From positions 361,397 through 425,396 of the forward strand of contig NZ_JQSG02000003.1 of the NCBI RefSeq assembly GCF_000754095.2: a stretch of 64,000 nucleotides of DNA, read 5' to 3'. The DNA is from Acidihalobacter prosperus. GTDB taxonomy: Bacteria > Pseudomonadota > Gammaproteobacteria > DSM-5130 > Acidihalobacteraceae. Under the pieces are notes generated by a model that had not been told where the DNA came from, ran no database searches, and saw only the letters and a program-made list of their open reading frames with translations. Both the position numbers and the translations under genes were made by a program. Position 1 is the stretch's first letter. Each line of letters begins with the position of its first letter. Shown here piece after piece: positions 1,743 through 24,467 of the stretch.

Positions 1743-2464
1743 GCGGCACCTCCGATGGCGGCCGGATCGCGGCGCAGCAGGCGGGTGAGCAGCCAGCCGC
1801 CGCCCAGGTAGAAGGCCGCCAGCAGCAGCAGGCTGGCATCGCCCAGCGGCCACGCGTAGCCCAGCGATTCCAGGGTCCAGAAGCTGCCGAAGGCGGTGAT
1901 CATGCCGCCGACCACGAACTTCATGGTGTTCTCGGGCACGCGGCGCAGCGGCCGGTGGATGAACAGGCCGAGCAGCACCACGCCGAGCAGCGCGACCACG
2001 GCCGCAGCGGCGGCGAGCAGGGTGCGGTGTGTCGGCGCGCCGAGCGCGACCACAATCAGCCACACCTCCAGCCCCTCCAGCAGCACCGCCTTGAAGGCCA
2101 CCAGCCAGGCGCCGCGCGGGCTGTCCTCGGCCAGCTGCGTCTGCGCCTTGGCGAAGGCCTTGTCCTCGTCGTGCAGCGCCTTGAGGCCGGCGCCGCGGGC
2201 GACCGCCTTGCCCAGCCAGCGAATGCCGAACAGCAGCAGGAAAACCCCGATCACGCCCTGCAGCCAGGGCAGTTCCAGCCCCGCATGCAACGCACCGCCG
2301 GTCGCCGCGGTCATCGCCGTCAGCAGCAGCAGTGCCGCCGCCGCCGCGCCGAGCGCGCTGCGCCAGCCGATGCTCAGGGCCACCGCGAGCACGATGGTAA
2401 AGGCTTCCACCCATTCGACCGTGGCGGCCAGCCAGGTGGCAATGACGACTCCCCAGAACGACAT
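1739..2464 (-). CDS. COG4280-like integral membrane protein
   Basis: A 241-aa polytopic membrane protein with about six to seven hydrophobic spans, resembling the uncharacterised COG4280 family. Two similar segments each carry a paired glutamate motif at the start of a helix: E17-W-V-E20 and E130-G-L-E133. The second is followed by VWLIVVALG and resembles the REGLE motif of FTR1/EfeU iron permeases. The start at 2464 follows a GAGTAATC ribosome-site-like stretch. It lies 25 bases after an ABC ATPase gene and overlaps the small membrane protein gene. Metal transport or electron transfer to metal is an inference from motif and context only. Confidence 0.65.
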   Translation of the reverse strand: MSFWGVVIATWLAATVEWVEAFTIVLAVALSIGWRSALGAAAAALLLLTAMTAATGGALHAGLELPWLQGVIGVFLLLFGIRWLGKAVARGAGLKALHDEDKAFAKAQTQLAEDSPRGAWLVAFKAVLLEGLEVWLIVVALGAPTHRTLLAAAAAVVALLGVVLLGLFIHRPLRRVPENTMKFVVGGMITAFGSFWTLESLGYAWPLGDASLLLLAAFYLGGGWLLTRLLRRDPAAIGGAA

Positions 2465-2489
2465 GATTACTCCTTGCGTGTTTTTCGTA

Positions 2490-3548
2490 TCAATCGGTAG
2501 TTTGACGAGACGGTGCGGGCGCGAAGATGAAGGCCTGCTCCGGCTCGATGCGCAACCGCGCCTGCGCCGGCGGCGGCGCGTCCTCCAGGCTGACCAGCGG
2601 CTGGTCCACGCCGGGCACGCGCCAGTAGACGCGGTAGCGACCCGCCTCGAACACGGCATGCAAGCACTCTGCCGGCAGCCCGTCGGCCGCGCCGTTGGCG
2701 CGCACGCCCTGCGGTCGCACATACAGCGCGCCGTGGCCGTTGAGCCCGGACTGGCGATGATGTGCCGCCACATCGACCCCGGCCAGCACGATGCCGGGCC
2801 CGCGCAGATCGCCCTCGAAGCCGCCCTGGGCGCCGGTGAAGCGCGCCACACCGGGCGTGGCCGGGGCGCGGTACAGCGCCTCCGGCGTGTCGAACTGCAC
2901 CAGCCGGCCGCCTTCGAGCACGGCCACCCGGTCGGCCAGCCGCCAGGCGTCCGCCGGATCGTGGCTGACGAATAGCGCGGCGACCCCGGCCTCGCGCACC
3001 ACCCGGCGGATCTCCATCCGCAGCTGGTCGCGGGTGTCCACGTCCAGACTGGACAGCGGTTCGTCGAGCAGCAGCAGCCGCGGGCGCACCGCCAGCGCGC
3101 GGGCCAGGCCGACGCGCTGCTGCTGGCCGCCGGAAAGCTGATGCGGACGCTTGCCGGCGGCATGCGCCACACCGACGCTTTCGAGCAGTTCGCGGGCACG
3201 TTCCTCGCGCCGCTTTTCGCCGCGCGGGATGGCGGCGGTCACGTTCTCCTGGCAGCTCAGGTGCGGCCACAGCGCGTATTCCTGGAACACCATGCCCAGA
3301 CCTCGGCGCTCGGGCGCGACGAAGCGGCGCTCGGCCGGGGCGTCCACGCAGTTGCCGTCGATCTCGATGCGCCCTGCATCGGCGCGCTCCAGTCCGCCGA
3401 CCAGGCGCAGCAGCGTGGTCTTGCCCGAACCCGAGGCGCCGATCAGGACGACGAACTCGCCGGGTGCCATGTCGAGATTCACGTCGTGCAGCACGGCATG
3501 TCCGCCCAGCGACTTGGACAGGCCTTCGATTTTGACCGATGCGTTCAT
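2490..3548 (-). CDS. ABC transporter ATP-binding protein (FbpC/PotA type)
   Basis: Cytoplasmic ATPase that powers the adjacent double permease (352 aa). Walker A GASGSGKT is at 37-44, the Q-loop at Q89, the LSGGQ signature at 138-142, Walker B RLLLLDEP at 157-164 and the switch histidine at H196 (VSHDPAD). After about residue 240 there is a C-terminal regulatory region of the TOBE kind, as in FbpC, PotA and CysA. The ATG overlaps the TGA of the permease gene (ATGA). Substrate is undetermined; the long two-domain permease next door favours an iron- or thiamine-type importer. Confidence 0.9.
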   Translation of the reverse strand: MNASVKIEGLSKSLGGHAVLHDVNLDMAPGEFVVLIGASGSGKTTLLRLVGGLERADAGRIEIDGNCVDAPAERRFVAPERRGLGMVFQEYALWPHLSCQENVTAAIPRGEKRREERARELLESVGVAHAAGKRPHQLSGGQQQRVGLARALAVRPRLLLLDEPLSSLDVDTRDQLRMEIRRVVREAGVAALFVSHDPADAWRLADRVAVLEGGRLVQFDTPEALYRAPATPGVARFTGAQGGFEGDLRGPGIVLAGVDVAAHHRQSGLNGHGALYVRPQGVRANGAADGLPAECLHAVFEAGRYRVYWRVPGVDQPLVSLEDAPPPAQARLRIEPEQAFIFAPAPSRQTTD

Positions 3549-5122
3549 GCGGTAACCCTCCGCGCCCCGACGGGCAGCAGCAGATAGGCGACGACCCCGG
3601 CGAGCGCGACCACGGCGGCGGTCAGCGCGAAGCCGCTGAGCGCGAGCCGCGCCGCGGCGTGGAAATGCAGGGTCTGGTTGAGACGGACGATGGCCACGCC
3701 CAGCGGTTCGCGACCGGGCGGGTACAGCAGCTCGGACACCGGCAGCTCGAACAGGATGAAGCCGAAGGCCAGCAGCCAGCCGCGCAGCAGCGGCGCGGCG
3801 AGCAGCACGGCCTCGATGTCGAGCACGCGCGCGGCCCACGGCAGGGCATGCAGGCGCGCGGCCTCGCCGAGACGGCGGTCGATCTGCGCCACCGGCGACT
3901 GCAGCAGACGCGTGAGCATGGGCGCGTAACCCGCGGTGTAGCCGAGGATCAGCAGCAGCGAGGTGCCGTAGAGCGGCAGCCAGGGCGTGTTGAAGGCCAT
4001 CAGGTAGGCCGCGCCGAGCACCAGCCCCGGAATCGCCATGTTGCTCAGGGTGAACAGCTCGATGCCCACGGCCAGCCCCTGCCCGCTGCGGTTGGACGCG
4101 CGCGCCAGGGTCACGGCCAGGGCCAGACTCGCGGTTGCCGCGAGCACGGCGAAACCGGTGGAGTTGAACAGGCTGGCGTAGTCGCCGGCCCAGTCGTGTC
4201 CGGCGAGCGCCGAGGCGACCAGGGCGAGACCCGGCGTCAGCAGGCCCAGCCCCCACAACACTCCGGCCAGGAGCAGGATCGCCCCGTGCAGGACACGTCC
4301 CGGCGGCGGCGGCGCGGCATGCCGCGCGCGCCCGTGCACCAGCACCGCGCTGTGACGGTGATGCAGGGAAAGGTGCAGCAGCGCGCCACCGGCGGCCATC
4401 GCCACCACCACCCAGCTCAGCCGCGCGGCGCCGGCGAAGTCGAGCGGCGAGGTGCTCAGGTGCTCGTAGATCGCGTAGGTCAGGATGGGCATGCGCAGGT
4501 GTGCGCCGAGCGTGGCCGGGATGCCGAACTCCTGCACGCTCTCGATGAAGGCGATGACGAAGCCGGCGGCCACGGCCGGCAGCGCCAGGCGCAGGGTCAG
4601 ACCTGCCCGCCGGGCAAGCGGCAGGGCATGCACGCGCATCGCCTCCTCCAGCTCGCGGCCCATGCCCGCCCAGGTCGGGCGCACCACGAAGGCGCAGAAC
4701 GGCAGGGCCTTGAGCGCGAGCAGGGCGACGATGCCGAACGGGCTGAAGAACAGCGCCGCGGCCAGGCCATGCCGCAAACCCTGCTCGCGAAACACGATCT
4801 GCCAGCCGGTGGTGAGCAGGTAGCTTGGGGCCAGGAAGATCAGCCACAGCGCGGCCGTCATGGCGTGGTTCAGCGGCGAGGCGCGCCGCTCCAGCAGCCA
4901 CGCGATGGCCGCGCCGAGCGGCGCCGCGATGCAGGCCGCGCCCAGCGCGAGCAGCGCGGTGTTGCGCACGGCCACCAGCAGGCCGTTCAGCCATCCGTGA
5001 TCCGACGCCGACGCGGTCGCGAACGGCAGGGCGAGAAAACGCAGCAGCGGATAGGCGAAGAACAGCGCCAGCAGCGCGACCAGCAGCAGGCCGGCAATCC
5101 GGCGCGACCAGGTCGTCGTCAC
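3545..5122 (-). CDS. Fused two-domain ABC permease (FbpB/ThiP type)
   Basis: Inner-membrane permease of 525 aa made of two homologous halves of about six spans each. Each half carries an EAA loop: LEEAMRVHALPLARR in the first and LGEAARLHALPWAAR in the second. Fused permeases of this size are characteristic of iron(III) (FbpB/SfuB) and thiamine (ThiP) importers. The GTG start at 5122 is preferred over the longer open frame because GTGA overlaps the stop of the binding-protein gene, the usual coupling in such operons. The gene in turn overlaps the ATPase gene by four bases. Confidence 0.88.
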   Translation of the reverse strand: MTTTWSRRIAGLLLVALLALFFAYPLLRFLALPFATASASDHGWLNGLLVAVRNTALLALGAACIAAPLGAAIAWLLERRASPLNHAMTAALWLIFLAPSYLLTTGWQIVFREQGLRHGLAAALFFSPFGIVALLALKALPFCAFVVRPTWAGMGRELEEAMRVHALPLARRAGLTLRLALPAVAAGFVIAFIESVQEFGIPATLGAHLRMPILTYAIYEHLSTSPLDFAGAARLSWVVVAMAAGGALLHLSLHHRHSAVLVHGRARHAAPPPPGRVLHGAILLLAGVLWGLGLLTPGLALVASALAGHDWAGDYASLFNSTGFAVLAATASLALAVTLARASNRSGQGLAVGIELFTLSNMAIPGLVLGAAYLMAFNTPWLPLYGTSLLLILGYTAGYAPMLTRLLQSPVAQIDRRLGEAARLHALPWAARVLDIEAVLLAAPLLRGWLLAFGFILFELPVSELLYPPGREPLGVAIVRLNQTLHFHAAARLALSGFALTAAVVALAGVVAYLLLPVGARRVTA

Positions 5123-6129
5123 TGACCGAGCACCGTGCGCGTGAACCACTGATTGATGGTCGATTCGAGCGGGCCCCACTGCGGCGGCGGCACGCTTTCG
5201 AGGTGCAGCGTGGCCGGGTCTGGAATGCGCTTGTCCGCCGGCGCGTCGGTGGTCACCGGCCAGTACAGGCCGTCGGAACCCTTGTCGCGCATCGCCAGCG
5301 CCTGGCCCTCGGGGCTCATGACGAAACGGATGAAGGCGGCGGCCGCGCGTTTGGCCGCGGGCGACAGATGCGGCGCCTCGACCATCACGCGCGGCAGGAT
5401 GAAGGCCGGATCGGGCACGCTGACCGCGATGTCGGAGCCGGGCTTGTCGGCCAGATAGTAGGCGGCCGAGGACTGCACCATGGCGATCTTGATCTCGCCG
5501 CTCTTGAGCGCCGCGAGCGTGGTGCTGTTGGTGCGGTAGACCTGCAGGCCGTTCTGCTTGAGCGCCAGCATGAACTTCTGACCCTGCGGCCAGCCGCCGG
5601 CGGTCTGCAGCATGCCCGCAAGCAGCGGGTAGGTCGGCCCGGACACGGCCGGATTGTTCATGCCCACCGCATTGCGGTAGGCCGGGGTCAGCAGACCCTG
5701 CCAGCTCGCCGGCGGCGCCAGGCCGTCGCGGCGGTAGGCGAACACGCCGGACAGGGTGTAGCCGGTGGGCACGTAGGCGCCGTTGCTCGGCAACAGCTTG
5801 CGGCCTTCACTGTTCCACGACACCTTGGGCAGGACGCCCTCGGCCACCAGACCGGCCTTGTCGAGGCCGGCGGCGGCAGTGGCGCCGTCGAACCAGGCCA
5901 GCGTCCACTGCGGACGGGCGGCCTCGGCGGAAACGCGCGCGATCAACGGCCCGGTGGAGGTGGTGATCACGGTGACCGGAATGCCGGTCTTCTTGGTGAA
6001 GGCCCTGGCCACCGCGGGACCGTAGTCCACCGCGTTGTACAGCACCAGGGTCTGGCGGGACTGCGGCCAGAGTATCCACACGGCGGCCGCCGCCACGGCC
6101 ACGACCACGATCAGCACCAACTTGCGCAT
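5119..6129 (-). CDS. ABC transporter substrate-binding protein
   Basis: Binding protein of 336 aa, first gene of the transporter operon. An N-terminal hydrophobic segment (MRKLVLIVVVAVAAAAVWIL) acts as signal peptide or anchor; no lipobox Cys is visible. The following LVLYNAVD...ARAFTKKTGIPVTV resembles the start of the iron/thiamine binding-protein fold (LxxYxxxD...FxKxTGI). An AGAGG ribosome site precedes the ATG. The gene is distinct in sequence from the Tat-exported binding protein at 206-1333, so the island has two import systems or two alternative receptors. Confidence 0.85.
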   Translation of the reverse strand: MRKLVLIVVVAVAAAAVWILWPQSRQTLVLYNAVDYGPAVARAFTKKTGIPVTVITTSTGPLIARVSAEAARPQWTLAWFDGATAAAGLDKAGLVAEGVLPKVSWNSEGRKLLPSNGAYVPTGYTLSGVFAYRRDGLAPPASWQGLLTPAYRNAVGMNNPAVSGPTYPLLAGMLQTAGGWPQGQKFMLALKQNGLQVYRTNSTTLAALKSGEIKIAMVQSSAAYYLADKPGSDIAVSVPDPAFILPRVMVEAPHLSPAAKRAAAAFIRFVMSPEGQALAMRDKGSDGLYWPVTTDAPADKRIPDPATLHLESVPPPQWGPLESTINQWFTRTVLGQ

Positions 6130-8764: not shown

Positions 8765-9481
8765 ATGCGCTGGATTCTGGTGGCGGGCAACGGCCCCCGA
8801 GCGACAGCGATCTCGCGTCGGCTGCGCCATGAAGGCTTTCGCGTCAGCGCCGTGGACGAGCCGGGCCAGGCCGTTGCGGGCCTGTGCGCCCGCCCGCATG
8901 AAGGCGCCCTGTTCGTCGGGCTGACGCCCGCGCACGCCGCCTCGCTTTCCCGGCTGGCCCGGGCGGCGCTCTCGGCACGCGGCGCCCGCTCCATCCCGAT
9001 GATCGCCGTATGCGACACCGCACCGGACGCGGCCGCGGCGGACGGGCTGCCGCTGTTCTGGCAGGCCGGCGCGGCCGACGAATCCCTGCTGCTCGCGCAG
9101 CTGCGTGCCCTGCTGCGTCGCGCCGACGGCTACCCGCGGCACCATCGCTTCGGCGCGCTCGGACTCGATCCGCAGCGCGCGCGCGTCAGTCTCGACGGCC
9201 AGTCCATCGCCCTGCGTCCGATGGAATTCAGGCTGCTCAACCTTTTGATAGAGGCTCAGGGCCGTCCGGTGCCGCCGACCATCCTGGCCGGCAGCCTGTG
9301 GCCCGATCGACCCTACTGCCGCGAACGGCTGGCGGTGCAGTTGCATCATCTGCGCCGCCGGCTGGGCGGCAAGAGCGCCCCAGTTCGCGTACAGCGCGTC
9401 AAGTCGCTCGGCTACGCGCTGGCCACCCGCCGGATCAGTCCCAAGAGGCCCGATACCCATGCAACTCCTCCTGCTCTGTGA
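8765..9481 (+). CDS. Atypical OmpR-like regulator with degenerate receiver (module 1)
   Basis: A 238-aa transcription factor. Residues 1-115 are a receiver-like fold that lacks the acidic pair and phospho-acceptor Asp (ILVAGNGPRA and ALFVGLTP at those places). Residues 130-228 are an OmpR/PhoB winged helix (LRPMEFRLLNLL...VQLHHLRRRLGG...VKSLGYAL). It is clearly paralogous to the regulator at 14776: both begin MRWIL and share GYP-H and LGLDP motifs. It is divergent from a TonB-dependent receptor, the likely target. With no kinase nearby and no Asp, activation by phosphorylation is unlikely; ligand binding or abundance control are alternatives. Confidence 0.85.
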   Translation: MRWILVAGNGPRATAISRRLRHEGFRVSAVDEPGQAVAGLCARPHEGALFVGLTPAHAASLSRLARAALSARGARSIPMIAVCDTAPDAAAADGLPLFWQAGAADESLLLAQLRALLRRADGYPRHHRFGALGLDPQRARVSLDGQSIALRPMEFRLLNLLIEAQGRPVPPTILAGSLWPDRPYCRERLAVQLHHLRRRLGGKSAPVRVQRVKSLGYALATRRISPKRPDTHATPPAL

Positions 9482-10118
9482 GCCTGGACACTCTCCCCGG
9501 CGTCTGATCACCGCGCTGCGCACGCGCTGCGAATCCATCAACGAAAGACCCTGGCCGGAGGCCGAAGACGATGCCTGGCCGCACGCGGAGGCGGTGATCA
9601 TGCATGGCTTCGACGACCGTGTGGTCGAGCACGTTGCCGCTGCGCGCGCACGCGCCGGCAAGGCTGCGCTGCTCGTGGTCGCCCCGCTCAGTCACAGCGG
9701 CCGCCTGGCCGCACTCGAACATGGTGCCGACGACTGTTTGCCGGACGACACGCCCGGTCAGACCCTGCATCAGCGCCTGCTCGCGCTGCATGCGATCACG
9801 CCGGCCGCGCTCAACGAGGGGCACTGCGTGGTCGGCGATCTGCGCATCGGCCTGTCGTCGGTGGATGTCTGGCGCGGCGACCGACACCTGCGCCTCGGCA
9901 TGCGCGAATATCAGTTGCTGCGCCTGCTGGCCCTCAACGCCGACCGCACCCTCAGCCGCGGAGAACTGGTCGAGCGCGTCTGGGGCATCGAGGCGGACCC
10001 CAACGACAATGTGCTGGACGTCTATGTGCACCGCCTGCGCAGCAAGGTGGACAAACCTTTCGCCAAGCCGCTGATCCAGACCGTGCGCGGCATCGGCTAC
10101 CGCCTGGCCGAAGACTGA
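9459..10118 (+). CDS. Second atypical OmpR-like regulator
   Basis: A 219-aa protein with an N-terminal receiver-like region and a C-terminal winged helix closer to canonical PhoB/OmpR (MREYQLLRLLALN...LVERVWG...NVLDVYVHRLRSKVD...VRGIGYRL). The receiver lacks the phospho-acceptor (AVIMHGFDD) and the conserved Lys (GADDCLPDD). The start overlaps the previous regulator by 23 bases, so the two are co-transcribed and probably co-translated. The pair may form heterodimers or cross-regulate. No sensor kinase gene is adjacent. Confidence 0.83.
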   Translation: MQLLLLCEPGHSPRRLITALRTRCESINERPWPEAEDDAWPHAEAVIMHGFDDRVVEHVAAARARAGKAALLVVAPLSHSGRLAALEHGADDCLPDDTPGQTLHQRLLALHAITPAALNEGHCVVGDLRIGLSSVDVWRGDRHLRLGMREYQLLRLLALNADRTLSRGELVERVWGIEADPNDNVLDVYVHRLRSKVDKPFAKPLIQTVRGIGYRLAED

Positions 10119-10603: not shown

Positions 10604-11695
10604 TCAACATGCTGCCAGTCCCAGATTGCGCATCCGCACCAGGTTGTAGGCCGCCGCGCTGAGCACAAACTGGAAATCCAGTTTCTCGCGTCCGACAAAC
10701 CGACTTTTGCGCAGACCCGCAATGGTCTTGAGCCAACCGAAGCATTCTTCGATCCGCTTGCGGATCGTCAGGCTGGTTCGGTAACCGGGATGGCCGATGG
10801 TGCGCCCGTCGATGGCCGAGCGGCGCCCGGCCGTGTTCTGAGCCACATGCGGCGTGACGTTTCGTCCACGCATCGCCGCCACAAAGCCTTGCGTGTCATA
10901 GTTCTTGTCCGCGCCCAGCGTGATCCGGTGGCTCCCGCCGAGCGCGTCGACAAGCTCGACACCGGCCTCGCGCTCGGCCGTGCCGGTGGCCTGGCTCGTC
11001 TGCGACTCGACGATCAGGCCGTGGCGGTTTTCCATCAGCAGGTGTCCGAGGTAGCTGAGCTTGGCGGTCGTGCCTTCGCTCTTGCGATACAGCAAGGCAT
11101 CCGGGTCGGTCCTGGAGACGTGCGTTTCCCGACACCGCTTCTGCCCGCGAAAGTCCACCGTGGGATTGCGCCCGCCACCGCTCGGCGGCGCGTCCTCGTC
11201 CCGGGGCCGGTAGCTCTTGTGCGAGGCCAGCGCTTCGATCAACGTGCCATCGACGCTGAAGTGTTCGCTAGACAGCAGATCGGCCGCACGGGCCTGATCC
11301 AGCACCCGGGCGAAGAAGGTGCGGGCCACATCGCCTGCAAGCAGGCGGTCACGGTTCTTGGTAAACGTGGAGTGGTGCCAGACCGGATCGTCCATGGAAA
11401 AGCCCACAAACCAGCGAAACAGCAGGTTGTAGTCGATCTGTTCGACCAACAGGCGTTCGCTGCGGATGGTGTAGAACGCCATCAACAGTTGCGCGCGCAG
11501 CAGCTTCTCCGGCGGGATCGAGTCACGGCCCATATGGGCATACAGCGCATCGAAGTCAGCGTCGAGTTCTTTGAGCGCTTGATCGACCATCCGCCGGATC
11601 GGGCGCAGAGGATGGTCCTTCGGCACCCGTTGCTCCGGGCTGACCGTGCTGAACAGCCCATCCTGATGTATGTCGGCACCGCGCATCGGCCACAA
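10604..11695 (-). CDS. IS5-family DDE transposase
   Basis: A 363-aa transposase with the DDE triad visible as D149 (FSVDGTLIEA), D263 (GADKNYD) and E316 (RIEECFGWLK). The N-terminal domain has the IS5-type sequence LLVEQIDYNLLFRWFVGFS. It fills the insertion element, leaving about 60 bases on the start side and 147 on the other. No frameshift or stop is seen, so it is probably functional. A second in-frame ATG at codon 4 could also serve as start. Confidence 0.93.
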   Translation of the reverse strand: MWPMRGADIHQDGLFSTVSPEQRVPKDHPLRPIRRMVDQALKELDADFDALYAHMGRDSIPPEKLLRAQLLMAFYTIRSERLLVEQIDYNLLFRWFVGFSMDDPVWHHSTFTKNRDRLLAGDVARTFFARVLDQARAADLLSSEHFSVDGTLIEALASHKSYRPRDEDAPPSGGGRNPTVDFRGQKRCRETHVSRTDPDALLYRKSEGTTAKLSYLGHLLMENRHGLIVESQTSQATGTAEREAGVELVDALGGSHRITLGADKNYDTQGFVAAMRGRNVTPHVAQNTAGRRSAIDGRTIGHPGYRTSLTIRKRIEECFGWLKTIAGLRKSRFVGREKLDFQFVLSAAAYNLVRMRNLGLAAC

Positions 11696-14775: not shown

Positions 14776-15531
14776 ATGCGCTGGATATTGATTTCAGGCG
14801 ATAATCGCCAGGCATTTGCCCTGCGCCAGCTTCTGATCAGGGATGGCTTTAAGATCGCGCATGCCAAGTCGCTGGAACACACGCGAGAGCAACTGTCGAC
14901 TCGCGAATTTTCAGCGATCCTGATGTCGGGTTTCGGACATGCCGACGTCCGCGCCTGGGCGCAAACCGTCGAACGGGATCTGGCGGGGCGGATCAATGGA
15001 TGCACGCCGGTTTTCTTGCTGCGGTCTGAAGCGCACTGCGATTTGTATCACGTCAACGGATGGGCCCCGGTGTTTTGCACGCACGAGGACATTTCGAACG
15101 ACGAAATACTGCTGCGTGTGCGTGCATTGCTCCGCCGCGCCGCCGGTTACCCGAATCACAGCTACATCGGGCCACTCGGCCTCGACCCGCTCACGCATCG
15201 CGCCTACCTCAACGGCTGGCCGATTTCCCTGCGCGCCAAGGAAATCGAGCTGCTGCAGGTGCTATGCGATCATGGCGAACGGGCGGCCTCGTACGAACAG
15301 CTGGAGGCGCTGCTCTGGGACGGCCGCTCGGGCGCGCGCGCGCGGCTCGCCTCGCAAGTGCGGAACCTGCGCGCCTCGCTGACCCGCCAGGGCGTCCCCC
15401 TGACCATCCGTAATGTGAAGGGATACGGCTACCGCCTGGTACAGCCAGGCAACGCGCCCCGAATCCGCCGGCCCGCGGGACGTGTCGCCCAACGCGGCGC
15501 GCGCGGCGAGGCGAGCAGCCAACTGCCCTGA
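14776..15531 (+). CDS. Atypical OmpR-like regulator with degenerate receiver (module 2)
   Basis: A 251-aa paralog of the regulator at 8765. The N-terminal receiver-like region (MRWILISGDNRQ...AILMSGFGHAD) has no phospho-acceptor Asp. The winged helix spans about residues 145-225 (LRAKEIELLQVLCDHG...RLASQVRNLRASLT...VKGYGYRL). A basic, Pro/Arg/Gly-rich tail of about 28 residues follows. Upstream DNA is AT-rich with a shared operator-like element. It is divergent from the second TonB-dependent receptor and is its likely regulator. No histidine kinase gene is nearby. Confidence 0.85.
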   Translation: MRWILISGDNRQAFALRQLLIRDGFKIAHAKSLEHTREQLSTREFSAILMSGFGHADVRAWAQTVERDLAGRINGCTPVFLLRSEAHCDLYHVNGWAPVFCTHEDISNDEILLRVRALLRRAAGYPNHSYIGPLGLDPLTHRAYLNGWPISLRAKEIELLQVLCDHGERAASYEQLEALLWDGRSGARARLASQVRNLRASLTRQGVPLTIRNVKGYGYRLVQPGNAPRIRRPAGRVAQRGARGEASSQLP

Positions 15532-15545
15532 GCCGGGGCGGCGCC

Positions 15546-18272
15546 TCAGTCGTCCAGCGGCGAGCCGCCGCCAGCGATCCGCCGCACCAGGTCGAGCAGG
15601 GCCTCGTCCAGCGTTTGCGCGCATTGCTGCAAGGCCCCGACGGCATGTGCCAGCTCGGCACGCCCACCCGCCTGCCATGCCTGCACCGCGGCGGCCGCCT
15701 GCTCATGCAACGCGTGGTGCAGCTGCCGCAGCGCGTCGAATCCGGGCTGGTGTCGGTGGCGGCTTCCGGCTCCGTCCAGCCAGTGACTCAGGCTGCAGTG
15801 CCGCTCGTCCACGCTGTCGTGAGCCGCCAGCATAGGGTGGTCCTCGCTGCGCGGCACGGCCAGCGCGCCGAGCAATTGCGAAACGCCGTAGCGATGCGCC
15901 GTGCGCGCCATCAGCAACGGCAGATCCTCATGCGTGAACCACACGCTTTTCTCGCCGCCGGTCCATTGCGGCGGCGGCAGCCAGGCGTCGGCCCATGCCG
16001 TCAACGCGTCGGCCGGCAGCGGATGGCTGATCAGATAACCCTGGGCCACCTGACAGCCGAGCTGCAGCAGCAGCTCGCCCTGCTCCACCGACTCGACGCC
16101 CTCGGCAACGACGTCCAGATCCAGCAGTCGTGCCGAAGTCAGCGTCCCCGCGATGATCGCAAGAGCCCGCGGCTCGACGAGCAAGCGGCCGACAAAGCGC
16201 TGGTCGAGCTTGATCTGATTGGCCGGCAGCTCCTGCAGATAGGTCAGCGAGGCATGCCCCGTGCCATAGTCGTCCAACGCGACCGCAAGCCCGCGCGCGC
16301 GGCAGGCGGCGAGCGCGCGGCGCGTGCTTTCGAGATCGCGCAGGGCCGCCTGCTCGGTGACCTCAATCTGCAGCCAGGCCGCGGCTGCCGGATGCCGCGC
16401 CAGCACTTCGTCGACGTCTTCGATGAACGCGGGGTCCAGCAGATGCTGGGCACCGATATTGACCGAGACATACCATCGGCGCCCGGTTCCCAGCCAGTGG
16501 TCGATCTGGCTCGCAGCCGCCTCGAGCATGTGCCGCCCAAGCTGTCGGATCAGCGGTGCCCGCTGCTCCACGGCCTCGATAAAACCAGCCGGCATGCGCA
16601 GCTCGCCCTGCCGCAGCCAACGCACCAGCACCTCGACGCCCCAGATCTCGCCCGTCGACATGTCCACCTTGGGCTGGTAGTGCAGCACCAACTCGTCACG
16701 CGCCATCGCCTGCAGGAATTCCCGCTGCAACAGATCGATGCGCTGCAGGTGGTCCTCACGGTCGCGCTCGAACAGGCGGTGAACGCCGCGACCGGCGTCC
16801 TTGGCCTGGTAGAGCGCGATGTCGGCATGACGGATCAGATCCTGCGCATCGACGTCGTCGAGCGGGTAGAGCGTCAATCCCAGGCTGGCGCCGACCTGAA
16901 CCTGCTCGCCGTGGATATGAAACGCCGGCGTGAAGGCTTGCTGCACGCGTTCAATCACCACCTCCGCCTCTTCGATCGTGCGCAGGTCGGGCAGCAGCAG
17001 ACCGAATTCGTCGCCGCCGAAACGCGCCACCGTATCGCCCTGCCGCAGGGCCGCCTGGACACGCGTGGCCACCTCGCGCAGCAGGGCGTCGCCGCTGGGA
17101 TGCCCCATGCGGTCGTTGACCGCCTTGAAGCCGTCGAGATCGATCATGCCGACGGCAAGCATGCGATCGCGGCGCAGGTTCTGCGCCATCGCATGGCGCA
17201 GACGGTCCATGAACAGCCCGCGATTGGGCAGCCCGGTCAACGGATCGCGCAAATGGCTCTCCTTGAGCCCAAGCAGCACCTGCCCCAGCCGCGCGAACGC
17301 GCCGAAGGGCGTCAGGTCGATATGGTCGAAGTACCAGCTGCGGTCGGAATAGACCACGCCCACACCGCGCAGACCGCCGACCCGGCCGAAAGGGAAGATC
17401 GCCACGGCTTCGATGCCCTGCCGCCAGGCGCACCAGCCCGGCACCGCCTGGCCCTGGCAGGTGAGCACCTGCAGGCGGTTTTCGTCGAGCGCCCGCCACA
17501 ACGGATCGGCGGGATCGTAGTCCACCTCCACCGTCTCCCAGAGCTGGCGCCGGCCGGCACCGGCATAGGCTCGGATCGGCGTGTGGGTGTCTTCGATGAG
17601 ACCGAACCAGACCGCTGGCAGATGGCGCGAACGCGTGACCAGCTCGGTGCAGATGCTCGCCAGCACGTCTTCCGGCGCGGCCAGATCGGCGAGCTTGAGC
17701 GTGGTCTCGATCAGCGCCTGGGAAATGGTCGCACGCTCGGTCATGGTCTCGTTGTGGATCGACTCGAAGCCCGCGAACTGCAACATGATGTCGGCCAGCA
17801 GCACGCGGAACACGGCCGAGCGCAACGGCGGCCGCTCCTCCAGCGGCAGTTCGCGGATGCGTGCCTCCAGATGATCGAGATAGAGGCTGAACCCGCCCGC
17901 CACCCAGACCGGCGAGACCTCATGGGCATAATGCGCCCGCGCGACACGGCCGACGGAACGGCCGGCGGTCTCCGGCCAGTCGGCGATCAGGCCGCGCAGG
18001 TGCCCGGCCTGGGCCACGGTAAGTTCGTGCAGACGATCCGGCCCCAGACGCTCGAACAGCACCGAGGTTTCGGGATAGGAGAGCAGGTAGTCGTAAAAGC
18101 GCTGCGAAAACGTCTCGGCGTCGGCGGTCAACAGCGGGGCATGGCGGGCAAGCAGGTCGAGCGTGTCGTCGTCCAGTCGGATGAAACGTCGCACGCGCGC
18201 CAGCAGATCGCGCCAGCGCGCATCGTCTGCCGATTCGCGTCGCCTACCCCGCGAAGTCTCTTCATTCGACAT
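15546..18272 (-). CDS. Globin-GAF-GGDEF-EAL-CZB c-di-GMP signalling protein
   Basis: A 908-aa cytoplasmic sensor. Residues 20-175 resemble a globin-coupled sensor with proximal His H114 (HYAHEVSPVW). Residues about 185-335 resemble a GAF domain. The GGDEF domain is intact (GGDEF at 419-423) with an inhibitory RxxD site (R410-D413) five residues before it. The EAL domain reads E547-V-L and keeps N605, E637, D667-D668, K688 and E724, so phosphodiesterase activity is plausible. The last 120 residues resemble a CZB zinc-binding domain: H793, C826 (CSLSHWL), H852/H853 and H856. It could join gas and zinc (or oxidant) sensing to c-di-GMP turnover. It lies 41 bases after nhaD on the same strand. Confidence 0.88.
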   Translation of the reverse strand: MSNEETSRGRRRESADDARWRDLLARVRRFIRLDDDTLDLLARHAPLLTADAETFSQRFYDYLLSYPETSVLFERLGPDRLHELTVAQAGHLRGLIADWPETAGRSVGRVARAHYAHEVSPVWVAGGFSLYLDHLEARIRELPLEERPPLRSAVFRVLLADIMLQFAGFESIHNETMTERATISQALIETTLKLADLAAPEDVLASICTELVTRSRHLPAVWFGLIEDTHTPIRAYAGAGRRQLWETVEVDYDPADPLWRALDENRLQVLTCQGQAVPGWCAWRQGIEAVAIFPFGRVGGLRGVGVVYSDRSWYFDHIDLTPFGAFARLGQVLLGLKESHLRDPLTGLPNRGLFMDRLRHAMAQNLRRDRMLAVGMIDLDGFKAVNDRMGHPSGDALLREVATRVQAALRQGDTVARFGGDEFGLLLPDLRTIEEAEVVIERVQQAFTPAFHIHGEQVQVGASLGLTLYPLDDVDAQDLIRHADIALYQAKDAGRGVHRLFERDREDHLQRIDLLQREFLQAMARDELVLHYQPKVDMSTGEIWGVEVLVRWLRQGELRMPAGFIEAVEQRAPLIRQLGRHMLEAAASQIDHWLGTGRRWYVSVNIGAQHLLDPAFIEDVDEVLARHPAAAAWLQIEVTEQAALRDLESTRRALAACRARGLAVALDDYGTGHASLTYLQELPANQIKLDQRFVGRLLVEPRALAIIAGTLTSARLLDLDVVAEGVESVEQGELLLQLGCQVAQGYLISHPLPADALTAWADAWLPPPQWTGGEKSVWFTHEDLPLLMARTAHRYGVSQLLGALAVPRSEDHPMLAAHDSVDERHCSLSHWLDGAGSRHRHQPGFDALRQLHHALHEQAAAAVQAWQAGGRAELAHAVGALQQCAQTLDEALLDLVRRIAGGGSPLDD

Positions 18273-18313
18273 AGCCTGCCTCCCCGTTCATGCGCTGTGC
18301 ACCCCGCCGCCGC

Positions 18314-19750
18314 TCAACCGCCGCCGGCGGGCAGGCGCATCAAATCGGCGTTGAGCCACAGATGCACCAGGATGCCGGCGGCATAACCCAGCGCCACCGC
18401 CCAGGTCCAACGCAAGTGGGCGAAAAAGGTGTAGATGCCCCGGGCCTGCCCCATCAGCCCGACACCGGCTGCCGAACCGACGGACAGCAGCGAGCCGCCC
18501 ACGCCCGCCGTCAGCGTGACCAGCAGCCATTGCCCGTGCGACATGTCCGGCTGCATGGTCAACACCGCGTACATCACCGGGATGTTGTCCACCAGCGCGG
18601 ACAGCAGGCCGACGATGACATTGGCGGGCGTTGCGCCGAGTCCCGCGTACAGAGCCTCCGACACCAGGGCCAGGTAGCCGAGGGCGGCCAAGCCGCCGAC
18701 GCACAGGATTACGCCGTAGAAGAACATCAGCGTATCCCACTCGGCGCGCTGGAGCTGCTCGAACACGTCGAACGCCTGCGCATGCCCGTTGCCGCCGTTC
18801 ATGCCGGCCAGTTCGCGGCGTTCGCGCATCTTGATGCGGTAGCCGTAGAGCTTGAGCAGACCAAGACCGGCCATCATGCCCAGCATCGGCGGCAGATGCA
18901 GATACTGATGGAAGACCACCGCGCTGGCGATGGTGACGAAGAACAGCAGGATCACCGTCACGCCGCCCGGTCGCAGCACCACCTGCTCGGTCAGCGGTCG
19001 CGGCCTGCCGCGCGGCACGGCGAAGGACATGATCGCCGCCGGCACCAGCCAGTTCACCAGCGCCGGCAGAAACAGGTCGAAGAACTGAGTGAAGGTGACC
19101 ATATGGCGCTGCCAGACCATCAGCGTGGTGATGTCGCCGAAGGGGCTGAACGCGCCGCCGGCGTTCGCCGCGACCACGATATTGATGCAGGCGAGTACCA
19201 CGAAGCGGGGATTGTCGCGCGCCACCGCCATCACCACCGCGGCCATCAGCAGTGCGGTGGTGAGATTGTCGGCCACCGGCGAGATGACGAAGGCCAGCAG
19301 GCCGGTGATCCAGAAGATGCTGCGCAGGGAAAAGCCGCGCGACACCAGCCAGGCGCGCAGCACGTCGAACACTCCGCGCTCCTGCATGGTATTGATGTAG
19401 GTCATCGCGGCCAGCAGGAACAGCATCAGCTCGACGTATTCAAGCAGGTTTTCGCGGATCGCCTCCTGCGGCAACGTGGTATTGCCATGCGCGGCGTAGG
19501 CGAGCGGCACCAGCACCCAGATCGCCGCGGCGGCGATCATCATCGGCTTGGACTTGCGCAGATGCAGCGCCTCCTCGGCCACCACCAGGAGATAGGCAAG
19601 CACGAACACCAGCAGGGCAGCCATGCCATACCAGCTGCCGGTGAGATCCCACGCCGGTGGCGGGCTGCCGGCGTTCGCCCAGGCAGCCGTGGGCAGCAGC
19701 AGGGCCGGAGCGGCGGCGAGTGCGCGGGCGAATGCTGACAGTGGCTTCAT
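18314..19750 (-). CDS. nhaD: NhaD-type Na+/H+ antiporter
   Basis: Inner-membrane sodium:proton antiporter of the ion-transporter superfamily (478 aa), used for pH and salt homeostasis. A cleavable-looking N-terminal signal (to AAWANA) precedes about twelve spans. NhaD-like signatures include SPVADNLTTALLMAAV, NAGGAFSPFGDITTLM and LSALVDNIPVMYAVL. The start at 19750 gives the signal peptide; no strong ribosome site is seen. It is divergent from an SLC13-like transporter and is followed by the c-di-GMP gene, with which it may be co-transcribed. Confidence 0.9.
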   Translation of the reverse strand: MKPLSAFARALAAAPALLLPTAAWANAGSPPPAWDLTGSWYGMAALLVFVLAYLLVVAEEALHLRKSKPMMIAAAAIWVLVPLAYAAHGNTTLPQEAIRENLLEYVELMLFLLAAMTYINTMQERGVFDVLRAWLVSRGFSLRSIFWITGLLAFVISPVADNLTTALLMAAVVMAVARDNPRFVVLACINIVVAANAGGAFSPFGDITTLMVWQRHMVTFTQFFDLFLPALVNWLVPAAIMSFAVPRGRPRPLTEQVVLRPGGVTVILLFFVTIASAVVFHQYLHLPPMLGMMAGLGLLKLYGYRIKMRERRELAGMNGGNGHAQAFDVFEQLQRAEWDTLMFFYGVILCVGGLAALGYLALVSEALYAGLGATPANVIVGLLSALVDNIPVMYAVLTMQPDMSHGQWLLVTLTAGVGGSLLSVGSAAGVGLMGQARGIYTFFAHLRWTWAVALGYAAGILVHLWLNADLMRLPAGGG

Positions 19751-19895
19751 GACGTGGACCCGTAAGCTCGGCAAGGCGGATACCGCAGCCGCCAAATCCG
19801 CCGAGACTACCATCACGCGCCAAGACGCACACCCCCGGCGGCGCGGCGCGGCGGTGTGGGCTATGCTGGTGTCGAAGTCGACCCGGGGGAATCGC

Positions 19896-21722
19896 ATGAC
19901 CGAAGCCATGAGCCTGACGCCCGCCATGATGGTGGTGCTCGGCCTGCTCGCCTTGACCGTACTGCTGTTCGTGACCGAAATCGTGCGCGTGGACGTCGCC
20001 GCCGTGCTGATCATGGTCCTGCTCGGGCTGCTCACCCTGGTGCCCGGGCTGGAAAAACTGACCGACCCGAGAAGGCTGTTCGAAGGCTTCGCCAGCAACG
20101 CGGTCATCTCCATCATCGCGGTGATGATCATCGGTGCCGGACTCGACAAGACCGGCATGATGGGACGTCTCGCGGGCACGATACTGCGCGTGGGCGGGCG
20201 CACGGAACGGCGCATCATCCCGCTGATCTCGGGCGCCGTGGGCCTGATCTCGAGCTTCATGCAGAACGTCGGCGCCGCCGCGCTGTTCCTGCCCGTGGTC
20301 GCGCGTATCTCGGCGCGCACCGGCCTGCCGATGTCGCGCCTGCTGATGCCCATGGGTTACTGCGCGATTCTCGGGGGCACCGTCACCTTGGTCGGCTCCA
20401 GCCCGCTGATCCTGCTCAATGACCTGCTGCCACCCGGCGTCGCCCGCTTCAAGCTCTTCGAAGTCACGCCCGTCGGCCTGGCCCTGGTCGCGGCCGGCAT
20501 TCTCTACTTCGTACTCGCTGGGCGCTACGTACTGCCGAGCAACGACACCCCCGGCGCGCGCGGCACCGACGTGATGGGCTATTTCCGCCGGCTTTACGGG
20601 CTCGATCTGGCCGCGATCGAGGCGCGCGTCAGCCCCGAAAGCCGACTCGCCGGCCGCCAGGTCGGCGAAATCGAGGAAGGCGACGGCATCCACATCATCG
20701 CGGCGCTGGTCGGCGGCACGCCGATGATCGCGCCGCCGCGCGACGTGACCATCGAGGCCGGCACACACCTGGTGCTGATGATCGAGCGCACGCGGCAGGT
20801 CGCCTACCTCGACGAGACCTCGCTGACGCCGAAACCCGAACTGGACGTCTTCAACGACCTGCTTGCGCCCACCCGCGCCGGCGTCTGCGAGGTGGTCATC
20901 CCCACCCGTTCGCGGCTGATCGGCCACAGTCTGCGCGAACTGTGGATGCGCAAGACCTACGGCCTGGCCGTGCTGGCCATCCACCGCGGTCGCGAAACCC
21001 TGCGCGAGGGCCTGCGCGACGTCGAACTTCAGCCCGGCGACACGCTGGTCTGCCACAACACTTGGGAAACGCTCGCGCGCATCGACCACGACCGCGATTT
21101 CGTGGTGGTGACCACCGAGTACCCGCACGAGGAGGAGCGTCCGCACAAGCTGGGCTTCGCGCTGTTCTTCTTCGCGCTGGCGATCGGCCTGGTGCTGTTC
21201 TCGCCGCTGCGCCTGTCGCTGTCGCTGATGGTCGGCGCCATCGGCATGGTGATCTCCGGCGTGCTGCATATGGACGAGGCCTACAAGGCGGTCGACTGGA
21301 AGACCGTGTTCCTGCTTGCCGCGCTGATCCCGCTGGGCATGGCCATGGAACAGACGGGCACCGCCGCCTGGGTCGCGGCGCAGACCCTGCAGCTGCTCGG
21401 CGGCGCGCCGCTGTGGGTGATCGAGGCCATGGTCGCGGTGCTCGCTACCGTGTTCACGCTGGTGATGTCCAACGTCGGCGCCACCGTGCTGCTGGTGCCG
21501 CTGGCCATCAGCATGGCCGTCGAATCCGGCGGCGACCCGCGCCTGTTCGCGCTGATCGTGGGGCTGGCCACCTCCAACTCCTTCATCATCCCCACCCATC
21601 AGGTCAATGCCCTGATCATGGGTCCCGGCGGCTACCGGGTGAAGGATTTCCTGCGCGCCGGGGGCATCATGAGCGTGCTGTTTCTAGTCGTCATGCTGGT
21701 CATGCTCAACCTCGTTTTCTGA
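19896..21722 (+). CDS. SLC13/DASS-family transporter with RCK_C domains
   Basis: A 608-aa inner-membrane transporter of the divalent anion:sodium symporter family. Hydrophobic halves (residues about 5-210 and 420-608) flank a cytoplasmic insert of about 200 residues with two TrkA-C (RCK_C) domains (SRLAGRQVGEI... and SRLIGHSLRELWMRKTYGL...). Such proteins are often annotated as sulfate, thiosulfate or dicarboxylate transporters. GGGGGA precedes the ATG. Substrate unknown; for an autotroph sulfate or a sulfur oxyanion is reasonable, but this is inference. It is divergent from nhaD with a 145-base shared control region. Confidence 0.88.
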   Translation: MTEAMSLTPAMMVVLGLLALTVLLFVTEIVRVDVAAVLIMVLLGLLTLVPGLEKLTDPRRLFEGFASNAVISIIAVMIIGAGLDKTGMMGRLAGTILRVGGRTERRIIPLISGAVGLISSFMQNVGAAALFLPVVARISARTGLPMSRLLMPMGYCAILGGTVTLVGSSPLILLNDLLPPGVARFKLFEVTPVGLALVAAGILYFVLAGRYVLPSNDTPGARGTDVMGYFRRLYGLDLAAIEARVSPESRLAGRQVGEIEEGDGIHIIAALVGGTPMIAPPRDVTIEAGTHLVLMIERTRQVAYLDETSLTPKPELDVFNDLLAPTRAGVCEVVIPTRSRLIGHSLRELWMRKTYGLAVLAIHRGRETLREGLRDVELQPGDTLVCHNTWETLARIDHDRDFVVVTTEYPHEEERPHKLGFALFFFALAIGLVLFSPLRLSLSLMVGAIGMVISGVLHMDEAYKAVDWKTVFLLAALIPLGMAMEQTGTAAWVAAQTLQLLGGAPLWVIEAMVAVLATVFTLVMSNVGATVLLVPLAISMAVESGGDPRLFALIVGLATSNSFIIPTHQVNALIMGPGGYRVKDFLRAGGIMSVLFLVVMLVMLNLVF

Positions 21723-21865
21723 ACGGCCTTCTCGCGCCGCGCCATTATCCCCGCTAGAATGCGATGGTTTTGCGCGGCGACGCCGTGGCGCAGCGCCCTG
21801 CGGGGCGGCTGCCCGAGCGCGGTTCCGGCCGACGGATTTTCCCTACGAGTAAAGGAGTCACCGAC

Positions 21866-22756
21866 ATGTCCAAGCGGCACCCCGTCATCGCGGTCACCGG
21901 TTCGTCCGGGGCCGGCACCTCCACCGTCAAGCGCGCGTTCGAGCACATTTTCCATCGCGAATCGATCAAGCCCGTGATCATCGAGGGCGACAGCTACCAT
22001 CGCTACAACCGCGTCGAGATGAAGGCGGCGATGAAGAAGGCGGCCGAGGCGGGCAACAACCACTTCAGCCACTTCGGCCCCGAGGCCAATCTCTTCGATA
22101 AGATAGAGGAAACCTTCCGCGCCTACGGCGAATCGGGCACCGGCAAGAAGCGCTACTACCTGCACAGCGACGAAGAGGCCGCCGAACACAACAGCCGCCT
22201 CGGCAGCGCCCTCAAGGCCGGCGAGTTCACGCCCTGGGAAGACATCCCCGAAGGCACCGACCTGCTGTTCTACGAAGGCCTGCACGGCGGCGTGCGCGAC
22301 GGCGAGATCGATGCCGGCCGTTTCGTCGACCTGCTGATCGGCGTGGTGCCCATCGTCAACCTCGAATGGATCCAGAAGATCCACCGCGACAAGGCCGAGC
22401 GCGGCTACGCGCCGGAGGCCACGGTGGAAACGATCCTGCGCCGCATGCCCGACTACGTGCGCTACATCACGCCGCAGTTTTCGCACACGGACATCAACTT
22501 CCAGCGCGTGCCCCTGGTCGACACCTCCAACCCCTTCATCGCGCGCGACATCCCGACGCCGGACGAAAGCCTGGTCATCATCCGCTTCAAGGATCCGGCC
22601 AAGTTCAACGTCGACTTCAGCTACCTGCTGGCGATGCTGCAGGGCTCGTTCATGTCGCGCCGCAACGATCTGGTCGTGCCAGGCGGCAAGATGGGCTTCG
22701 CCATGGAAATCATCCTCGGCCCCATCATCGACCGCATGCTCGCAGAACGCGATTGA
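21866..22756 (+). CDS. prk: Phosphoribulokinase, class I
   Basis: Phosphorylates ribulose 5-phosphate to ribulose 1,5-bisphosphate, the CO2 acceptor of the Calvin cycle (296 aa). The P-loop is GSSGAGTST near the N-terminus; EGDSYHRYNR and DLLFYEGLHGG match the family's substrate-binding and Walker B regions. The length matches the bacterial octameric enzyme. AAAGGAG lies eight bases before the ATG. RuBisCO is not in the window, so prk is unlinked to it here. Its presence is the main argument for an autotrophic host. Confidence 0.96.
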   Translation: MSKRHPVIAVTGSSGAGTSTVKRAFEHIFHRESIKPVIIEGDSYHRYNRVEMKAAMKKAAEAGNNHFSHFGPEANLFDKIEETFRAYGESGTGKKRYYLHSDEEAAEHNSRLGSALKAGEFTPWEDIPEGTDLLFYEGLHGGVRDGEIDAGRFVDLLIGVVPIVNLEWIQKIHRDKAERGYAPEATVETILRRMPDYVRYITPQFSHTDINFQRVPLVDTSNPFIARDIPTPDESLVIIRFKDPAKFNVDFSYLLAMLQGSFMSRRNDLVVPGGKMGFAMEIILGPIIDRMLAERD

Positions 22757-23348: not shown

Positions 23349-24467
23349 ATGGAACGCTTCGCACTCGCCCACACCACCGGCATCGACCCCGAACAACTGA
23401 TCGCCGACTGCGCACGCCAGCTCGGCCCGCTGCCCGATTCCGCCAGCCTCGGCATCCTCTATCTCACCGACGCACTGGCGCCGCGACTGGATGAACTGGT
23501 CGAAGGCCTGCGCGAGGTGACCGGCGTGCCGCACTGGGTGGGCACCGTCGGCGTGGCCGTCAGCGTCACCGGGTTCGAATATTACGACGCACCCGCGCTG
23601 TGCGCGCTGGTCGGCGACTTCCCGCCGGAAAGCTTCCGCATGATGCCGCTGATCGACAGCGACCCCGCGCACTACCTCGCGCTGCACCGCGACTGGCTTC
23701 AGCGCGAGGAAACCATGGTGGCGCTGGTGCATGGGGATCCCACCAACCCGCGGACGCCTCAGCTCATCGGCGCACTGGCCGACGCCGTGCCCAATCTGTT
23801 CATGTTCGGCGGCATCACCTCCAGCCAGGGCGATCACCGCCAGGTCGCCGATCTGGTGGTGGGTGGCGGCCTGTCGGGCGTCGTTTTCGGGCCGGAAGTC
23901 GGCCTGGTCACCGCCCACACGCAGGGCTGCACGCCCATCGGCCCCCGTCACCGCATCACCCGCAGCGACCGCAACCTTGTGATCGAACTCGATCACAAGC
24001 CGGCGCTCCAAGTAATGAAGGCCGACATCGGCGAGGTACTCGCGCGCGACCTCAACCGCGTCGGCGGCTACATCTTCGCCGGCCTGCCGGTGCCTGGTAG
24101 CGACGACGACGACTATCTGATCCGCAACCTGGTCGGCGTCGACCAGCCCCGTCAGATCGTCGCCATCGGCGACTACGCCGAGGAGGGCGGCGAGCTGATG
24201 TTCTGCCGGCGCGATGGCAACACCGCGCGCGTGGATCTGCAACGCATGCTCGGCGACCTCCAGGGACGCATGAACAGCTCGCCGCGCGGCGCGGTCTACA
24301 TCTCCTGCGTCGGCCGCGGCCGTTACCAGTTCGGCGACGACTCCGCCGAACTGCGCATCATCCAGGACGCGCTAGGCGACGTGCCGCTGGTCGGCTTTTT
24401 CGCCAATGGCGAGATCTTCCGCAACCGGCTTTACGGTTTCACCGGCGTTCTCACCCTGTTTCTCTGA
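23349..24467 (+). CDS. FIST-domain signal-sensing protein
   Basis: A 372-aa protein with FIST_N (about residues 25-210) and FIST_C (about 220-365) domains. The end GFFANGEIFRNRLYGFTGVLTLFL is the characteristic FIST_C terminus. FIST proteins are proposed cytoplasmic small-ligand sensors, often genetically linked to c-di-GMP or chemotaxis proteins; a c-di-GMP enzyme and a chemoreceptor lie within a few kilobases. The stand-alone form here has no output domain, so it would act through a partner. The ligand is unknown. Confidence 0.85.
   Translation: MERFALAHTTGIDPEQLIADCARQLGPLPDSASLGILYLTDALAPRLDELVEGLREVTGVPHWVGTVGVAVSVTGFEYYDAPALCALVGDFPPESFRMMPLIDSDPAHYLALHRDWLQREETMVALVHGDPTNPRTPQLIGALADAVPNLFMFGGITSSQGDHRQVADLVVGGGLSGVVFGPEVGLVTAHTQGCTPIGPRHRITRSDRNLVIELDHKPALQVMKADIGEVLARDLNRVGGYIFAGLPVPGSDDDDYLIRNLVGVDQPRQIVAIGDYAEEGGELMFCRRDGNTARVDLQRMLGDLQGRMNSSPRGAVYISCVGRGRYQFGDDSAELRIIQDALGDVPLVGFFANGEIFRNRLYGFTGVLTLFL

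Follow-up and report, generated by a model that had tools for sequence, protein, structure and literature searches.

The window analysed here is a stretch of 64,000 nucleotides from Acidihalobacter prosperus, and the gene under study is an open reading frame of 908 amino acids on its minus strand (15546-18272). The frame begins with an ATG and the sequence just upstream, GGGGAGGCAGGCT-ATG, contains a putative ribosome-binding site. The positions of the gene, its predicted domains and its two neighbours are collected in Table 1.

Table 1. Genes and protein domains at the locus, with positions in the window
Feature	Positions	Strand	Basis
nhaD, sodium:proton antiporter	18314..19738	-	NCBIfam NF038006 568 bits; on the strand of the c-di-GMP gene and 41 bp upstream of it
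Protoglobin-GAF-GGDEF-EAL-CZB protein, 908 aa	15546..18272	-	Pfam, GAF profile comparison, orthologs L006-L009
Protoglobin domain, residues 24-166	17775..18203	-	PF11563 55.5 bits (Pfam cut-off 25); candidate proximal His H114, B10 Tyr Y60
GAF domain, residues 191-339	17256..17702	-	hhalign 99.7%, HMM 84 bits against paralog GAFs
GGDEF domain, residues 342-495	16788..17249	-	Pfam 152 bits; motif GGDEF 419-423, I-site R410/D413
EAL domain, residues 517-751	16020..16724	-	Pfam 197 bits; catalytic residues checked
C-terminal tail with CZB, residues 765-908	15549..15980	-	Pfam CZB 820-863; ligands H793, C826, H852, H856
Convergent OmpR-type winged-helix regulator, downstream neighbour	14776..15531	+	Pfam Trans_reg_C 43.9 bits

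Among the four genomes compared with the window, the adjacency of nhaD and the c-di-GMP gene is retained in three relatives (G001, G002 and G004) and not in G003, and nhaD is probably the operon partner of the gene, co-transcribed with it. A promoter scan of 15300-20100 found no promoter-like site, together with two terminator-like sites that are not in excess over shuffled sequence. The absent promoter match agrees weakly with such co-transcription, weakly because the scan covered the sigma-70 consensus only. On the other side, the regulator keeps its position in G001 and G002. Neither this regulator nor a second OmpR-type winged-helix regulator of the window (9459-10118, plus strand) has a Pfam match to a receiver domain. 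Farther away, a protein with FIST N and FIST C sensor domains (23349-24467, plus strand) lies beside a phosphoribulokinase-family gene (21803-22756), a block that is retained in G001, G002 and G004, and a DDE transposase (DUF772/DDE_Tnp_1; 10604-11695, minus strand) is likely part of an insertion sequence.

The sequence-only reading had described, without naming a strand, a five-domain protein in the order globin, GAF, GGDEF, EAL and CZB. This reading is right, since four of the domains are recognised by Pfam and the GAF domain by profile comparison. The matches to GGDEF and EAL are both over their own cut-offs, and so are those to protoglobin and CZB (55.5 bits against 25 and 31.7 bits against 29.4, respectively). 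The region of residues ~190-340 has no Pfam match to GAF in the window protein. A profile built from paralog GAF domains matches residues 191-339 with 84 bits, and alignment of the ortholog alignment with the paralog GAFs by hhalign gives a probability of 99.7%, against 0.2% for a CZB-versus-GAF control. Chance domain calls were considered and rejected, as GGDEF, EAL and protoglobin score far over the cut-off and the invariant ligands support CZB. We take the architecture and family assignment as protoglobin-GAF-GGDEF-EAL-CZB to be almost certain. A full-length AlphaFold model, built from two sequences only, has a mean pLDDT of 50.8, which is too poor for domain contacts.

Two further claims about this domain order do not hold. 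It had seemed rare, and CZB was said to sit normally at the C-terminal of chemoreceptors or at the N-terminal of DgcZ. In the literature, 3.4% of 10,140 CZB proteins are of the EAL-CZB type and globin is among the sensor domains found in CZB proteins (Perkins 2021, PMC8262984), and AFE_1712 is a Protoglobin-GGDEF-EAL-CZB protein conserved throughout the Acidithiobacillia (2019 survey, PMC6416229). The A. caldus protein WP_004872567.1 matches the window protein end to end, with 39% identity over 888 columns that span all five domains (E 2e-174); it has protoglobin (79.6 bits), GGDEF, EAL and a CZB match of 27.2 bits, which is under the cut-off. This CZB is missing from Table 3 of the 2019 survey (PMC6416229), in which the pAca1 protein stands as GCS-GGDEF-EAL. 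The window gene is thus a further example of a five-part protein already known from related acid bacteria that live in mines. The placement claim fails as well. In gammaproteobacteria CZB often follows EAL directly: GGDEF-EAL-CZB proteins with Pfam matches to CZB occur in many foreign genomes, and searches and stretches of the window's own genome gave several further GGDEF-EAL proteins that end in a CZB-like tail.

Surveys of related genomes show how often the two sensor domains meet. CZB and protoglobin were each found in at least 116 of 369 sampled genomes of the class. Among the matches listed, 8 of the 20 long CZB frames examined are GGDEF-EAL-CZB proteins (7 by Pfam and L104 by its tail sequence), and a single one of the 20 long protoglobin frames examined, L116, has protoglobin and CZB together. 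L116 has lost the B10 Tyr; its relative L136 also combines protoglobin with CZB, in a frame without the globin start. In a search of the phylum (398 genomes, with at most two candidates scored in each), no foreign hit among the matches listed extends into the globin. A profile scan of contigs with the tail alignment found one relative only, the MAG that holds the ortholog L009/L055.

Orthologs of the window protein are 79% (L006) and 75% (L007) identical in the same genus, and 53% (L008) and 46% (L009) identical in the same family. In L009/L055 the GGDEF-EAL-CZB part is retained and the protoglobin match is absent; as L009 has the tail without the globin, O2 sensing would be dispensable in its lineage. 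The paralogs L037 and L041 have protoglobin-GAF-GGDEF-EAL followed by a short CZB-like tail; their GGDEF motif reads SGDEF, the position of H91 is occupied by Asn, and L037 is without the I-site Asp. Another paralog group of the same genus (L046 and L048) has lost the Cys motif of CZB. A quick tree of GGDEF-EAL cores, whose branch order is provisional, separates the ordinary globin-GGDEF-EAL proteins from those that bear CZB, whether these have a globin or not. Within the latter group the presence of globin and CZB varies, as in L032 (without CZB) and L009 (without globin).

The catalytic core carries the residues of both enzymes. In the GGDEF domain the motif G419-F423, the metal-binding D378 and the RxxD I-site (R410 and D413) are intact, and all of them are conserved in the orthologs and in the A. 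caldus protein, in agreement with the I-site noted earlier. The EAL motif takes the form EVL at 547-549, and E547, N605, E637, D667, D668, K688, E724 and Q744 are invariant in 9 homologs. Based on these residues, there is a high probability that both synthesis and degradation of c-di-GMP are possible. In dual-domain GGDEF-EAL proteins one dominant activity is often seen, and it could be suggested that the cell uses a single catalytic domain here, with the protein acting as a phosphodiesterase regulated by O2 and zinc and GGDEF serving as a GTP-binding allosteric domain. The full set of EAL residues listed above is in line with this option, but a GGDEF domain whose motif, metal Asp and I-site are kept through the orthologs and the A. 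caldus protein shows no visible decay, and we regard the option as possible though rather doubtful.

In the C-terminal tail, the CZB match (residues 820-863) is barely over its cut-off and covers the profile only from position 24 of 64, and in two orthologs the score is under the cut-off (24.3 bits in L053 and 24.9 bits in L009). Profile-profile comparison of the tail with better-scoring EAL-linked CZB tails gives 98.3%, with the ligands in register, and recovers the 5' part of CZB. These EAL-linked tails in turn match the solved CZB domain of DgcZ (3T9O, E 2e-7), and it is via them that the tail was linked to DgcZ; a profile search of the PDB with the ortholog tail alone gave coiled-coil noise and did not find DgcZ. 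The predicted ligand set of three His and one Cys (H..C..HxxxH) had been named as H793, C826, H852 or H853, and H856. Of these, H853 is unconserved and drops out; H793, C826, H852 and H856 do not vary among five orthologs, although identity of the tails falls as low as 32%. The set also aligns with that of the A. caldus protein. We consider it probable, based on these residues, that the tail binds zinc.

Could this domain instead be a structural four-helix dimerisation bundle that has lost zinc sensing, as in DosC, whose middle domain is CZB-like? The model of the tail is a four-helix bundle (pLDDT 78). In VIA-align its match to the middle domain of DosC, 4zvc (Z 11.7, rmsd 2.6, 114 residues), is about as good as that to the DgcZ CZB, 3t9o (Z 10.9, rmsd 3.0, 115 residues), and many unrelated four-helix bundles have similar or higher Z. 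Foldseek with the tail model found nothing at E <= 0.001. Two positions of the zinc motifs also deviate. At H+3, three positions past the first zinc His (H-x2-W), the Trp that is invariant in other EAL-linked CZB domains is replaced by G796, and an aromatic residue is missing here across the ortholog family; the Cys motif (CxLGxW) has Ser829 instead of its near-universal Gly in the window protein only, the orthologs retaining Gly. The loss of the Cys motif in the paralogs L046 and L048 points the same way. Neither the Gly in the Cys motif nor an aromatic residue or Leu at H+3, usual as both are in CZB, is necessary for zinc ligation. Against the structural reading, such a bundle would not need the four ligands that are invariant in five orthologs and shared with A. 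caldus. We regard a purely structural role as unlikely. In DgcZ and TlpD the zinc Cys is the sensor. This Cys is retained here, but the Trp at H+3 and, in the window protein, the Gly next to the Cys are not, and sensing of hypochlorous acid modelled on these two proteins can be put forward only as a tentative idea.

The globin family profile matches the solved heme globin-coupled sensors 8h17 (4.5e-14) and 2w31 (7e-13), and also HemAT 1or4 and AfGcHK 5ohe (6e-7). H114 is the sole invariant His among 7 family globins and is aligned to the conserved His of 8h17 and 2w31. In HemAT numbering the proximal His lies 53-54 residues past the B10 Tyr, a position that corresponds to H114 in the window protein. 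H114 is therefore the likely heme ligand, as candidate proximal His, and H91 was rejected for this role since H114 alone is invariant and has the HemAT spacing. Heme binding and O2 sensing by the globin seem likely from these residues and profile matches. A globin without gas sensing, kept as a structural or partner-binding domain only, might be read from the ortholog L009 without globin, from L116 without the B10 Tyr and from the Asn at the H91 position in L037 and L041, but it is very unlikely given that Y60, H91 and H114 are all retained in the window protein, L006, L007 and L008 and that the family profile matches proven heme sensors.

Several known systems share parts of this layout. The A. 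caldus protein has the same domain order, zinc ligands and candidate heme His, and differs in having R, where the window protein has G, three residues past the first zinc His (H+3). The setting differs too: the A. caldus gene is carried by a mobilizable plasmid (L138, A. caldus pACA1.1, 2133-5571), on which it comes directly after a gene for a PilZ c-di-GMP effector, and the window gene follows nhaD. The gammaproteobacterial PAS/GAF-GGDEF-EAL-CZB proteins, which belong to the EAL-CZB group of Perkins 2021, have CZB right after EAL, as in the window protein, and their cores form one group with the globin forms in the quick tree; in these proteins an N-terminal PAS, CHASE, HAMP, CBS or receiver domain replaces the globin and the H-x2-W of CZB is retained. 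In DosC (YddV) of E. coli an N-terminal heme globin controls GGDEF and the middle domain is 'CZB-like' in Pfam (PF21118), but there is no EAL, and GGDEF is separated from the globin by the CZB-like domain. In DgcZ (YdeH) a CZB with a zinc site of three His and one Cys controls a GGDEF enzyme, which is inhibited by zinc and relieved by HOCl (PMC8262984). Its CZB is N-terminal and globin, GAF and EAL are absent, unlike in the window protein.

A mechanism that fits these comparisons is that of a cytoplasmic bifunctional enzyme in which the globin would bind heme and detect O2, and its state would be relayed via GAF to a dimeric GGDEF-EAL core, which synthesises as well as breaks down c-di-GMP. 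At the C-terminal, binding of zinc by CZB or oxidation of the zinc Cys may shift the balance of the two activities, similar to the effect of zinc and HOCl on DgcZ. Heme, zinc, the activities and their coupling are taken here by analogy with DgcZ and with globin-coupled cyclases of the DosC type. Input of O2 and of zinc or redox state to c-di-GMP, as proposed in the sequence-only reading, is in this sense supported as plausible, with heme and zinc binding read from residues. The prediction, which we hold with good confidence, is that the protein makes as well as degrades c-di-GMP, with a globin that senses O2 and a CZB that senses zinc or redox state; for control of the output by both sensors in one protein the chances are about even. 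Because of the probable co-transcription with nhaD, the conditions of c-di-GMP output would coincide with those of sodium/proton exchange in this salt-tolerant acidophile. We tentatively propose, as a possibility of rather low probability, a two-input gate (heme-O2 together with zinc or thiol oxidation) that is operon-wired to the sodium/proton antiporter, by which salt, oxygen and metal or redox state would together control attachment during saline acid leaching.

In the literature we did not find biochemistry of a globin-CZB protein, and since the architecture is already described, the value of the window protein lies in its biochemistry. If the two-input gate is real, c-di-GMP signalling would gain its first demonstrated dual sensor of globin and CZB; if both sensors work, the protein becomes a test case for a GGDEF-EAL enzyme that combines gas and metal or oxidant inputs. 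In the bacteria concerned, bioleaching is driven by attachment to ore.

Two minor observations concern other GGDEF-EAL proteins of this set. L047 and L045 have Cys-rich tails that do not resemble the usual CZB ligand pattern (in L047, CLSCE and CETCQQAEDGCEH), and an altered metal site is possible there. The ~1090-amino acid GAF-GGDEF-EAL-CZB proteins L035 (G000:C7, on a 32.9-kb contig of G000) and L043 (G002) are almost identical, whereas the orthologs of the window protein in G000 and G002 are only about 75% identical, and this difference suggests recent transfer of L035/L043 by a mobile element.
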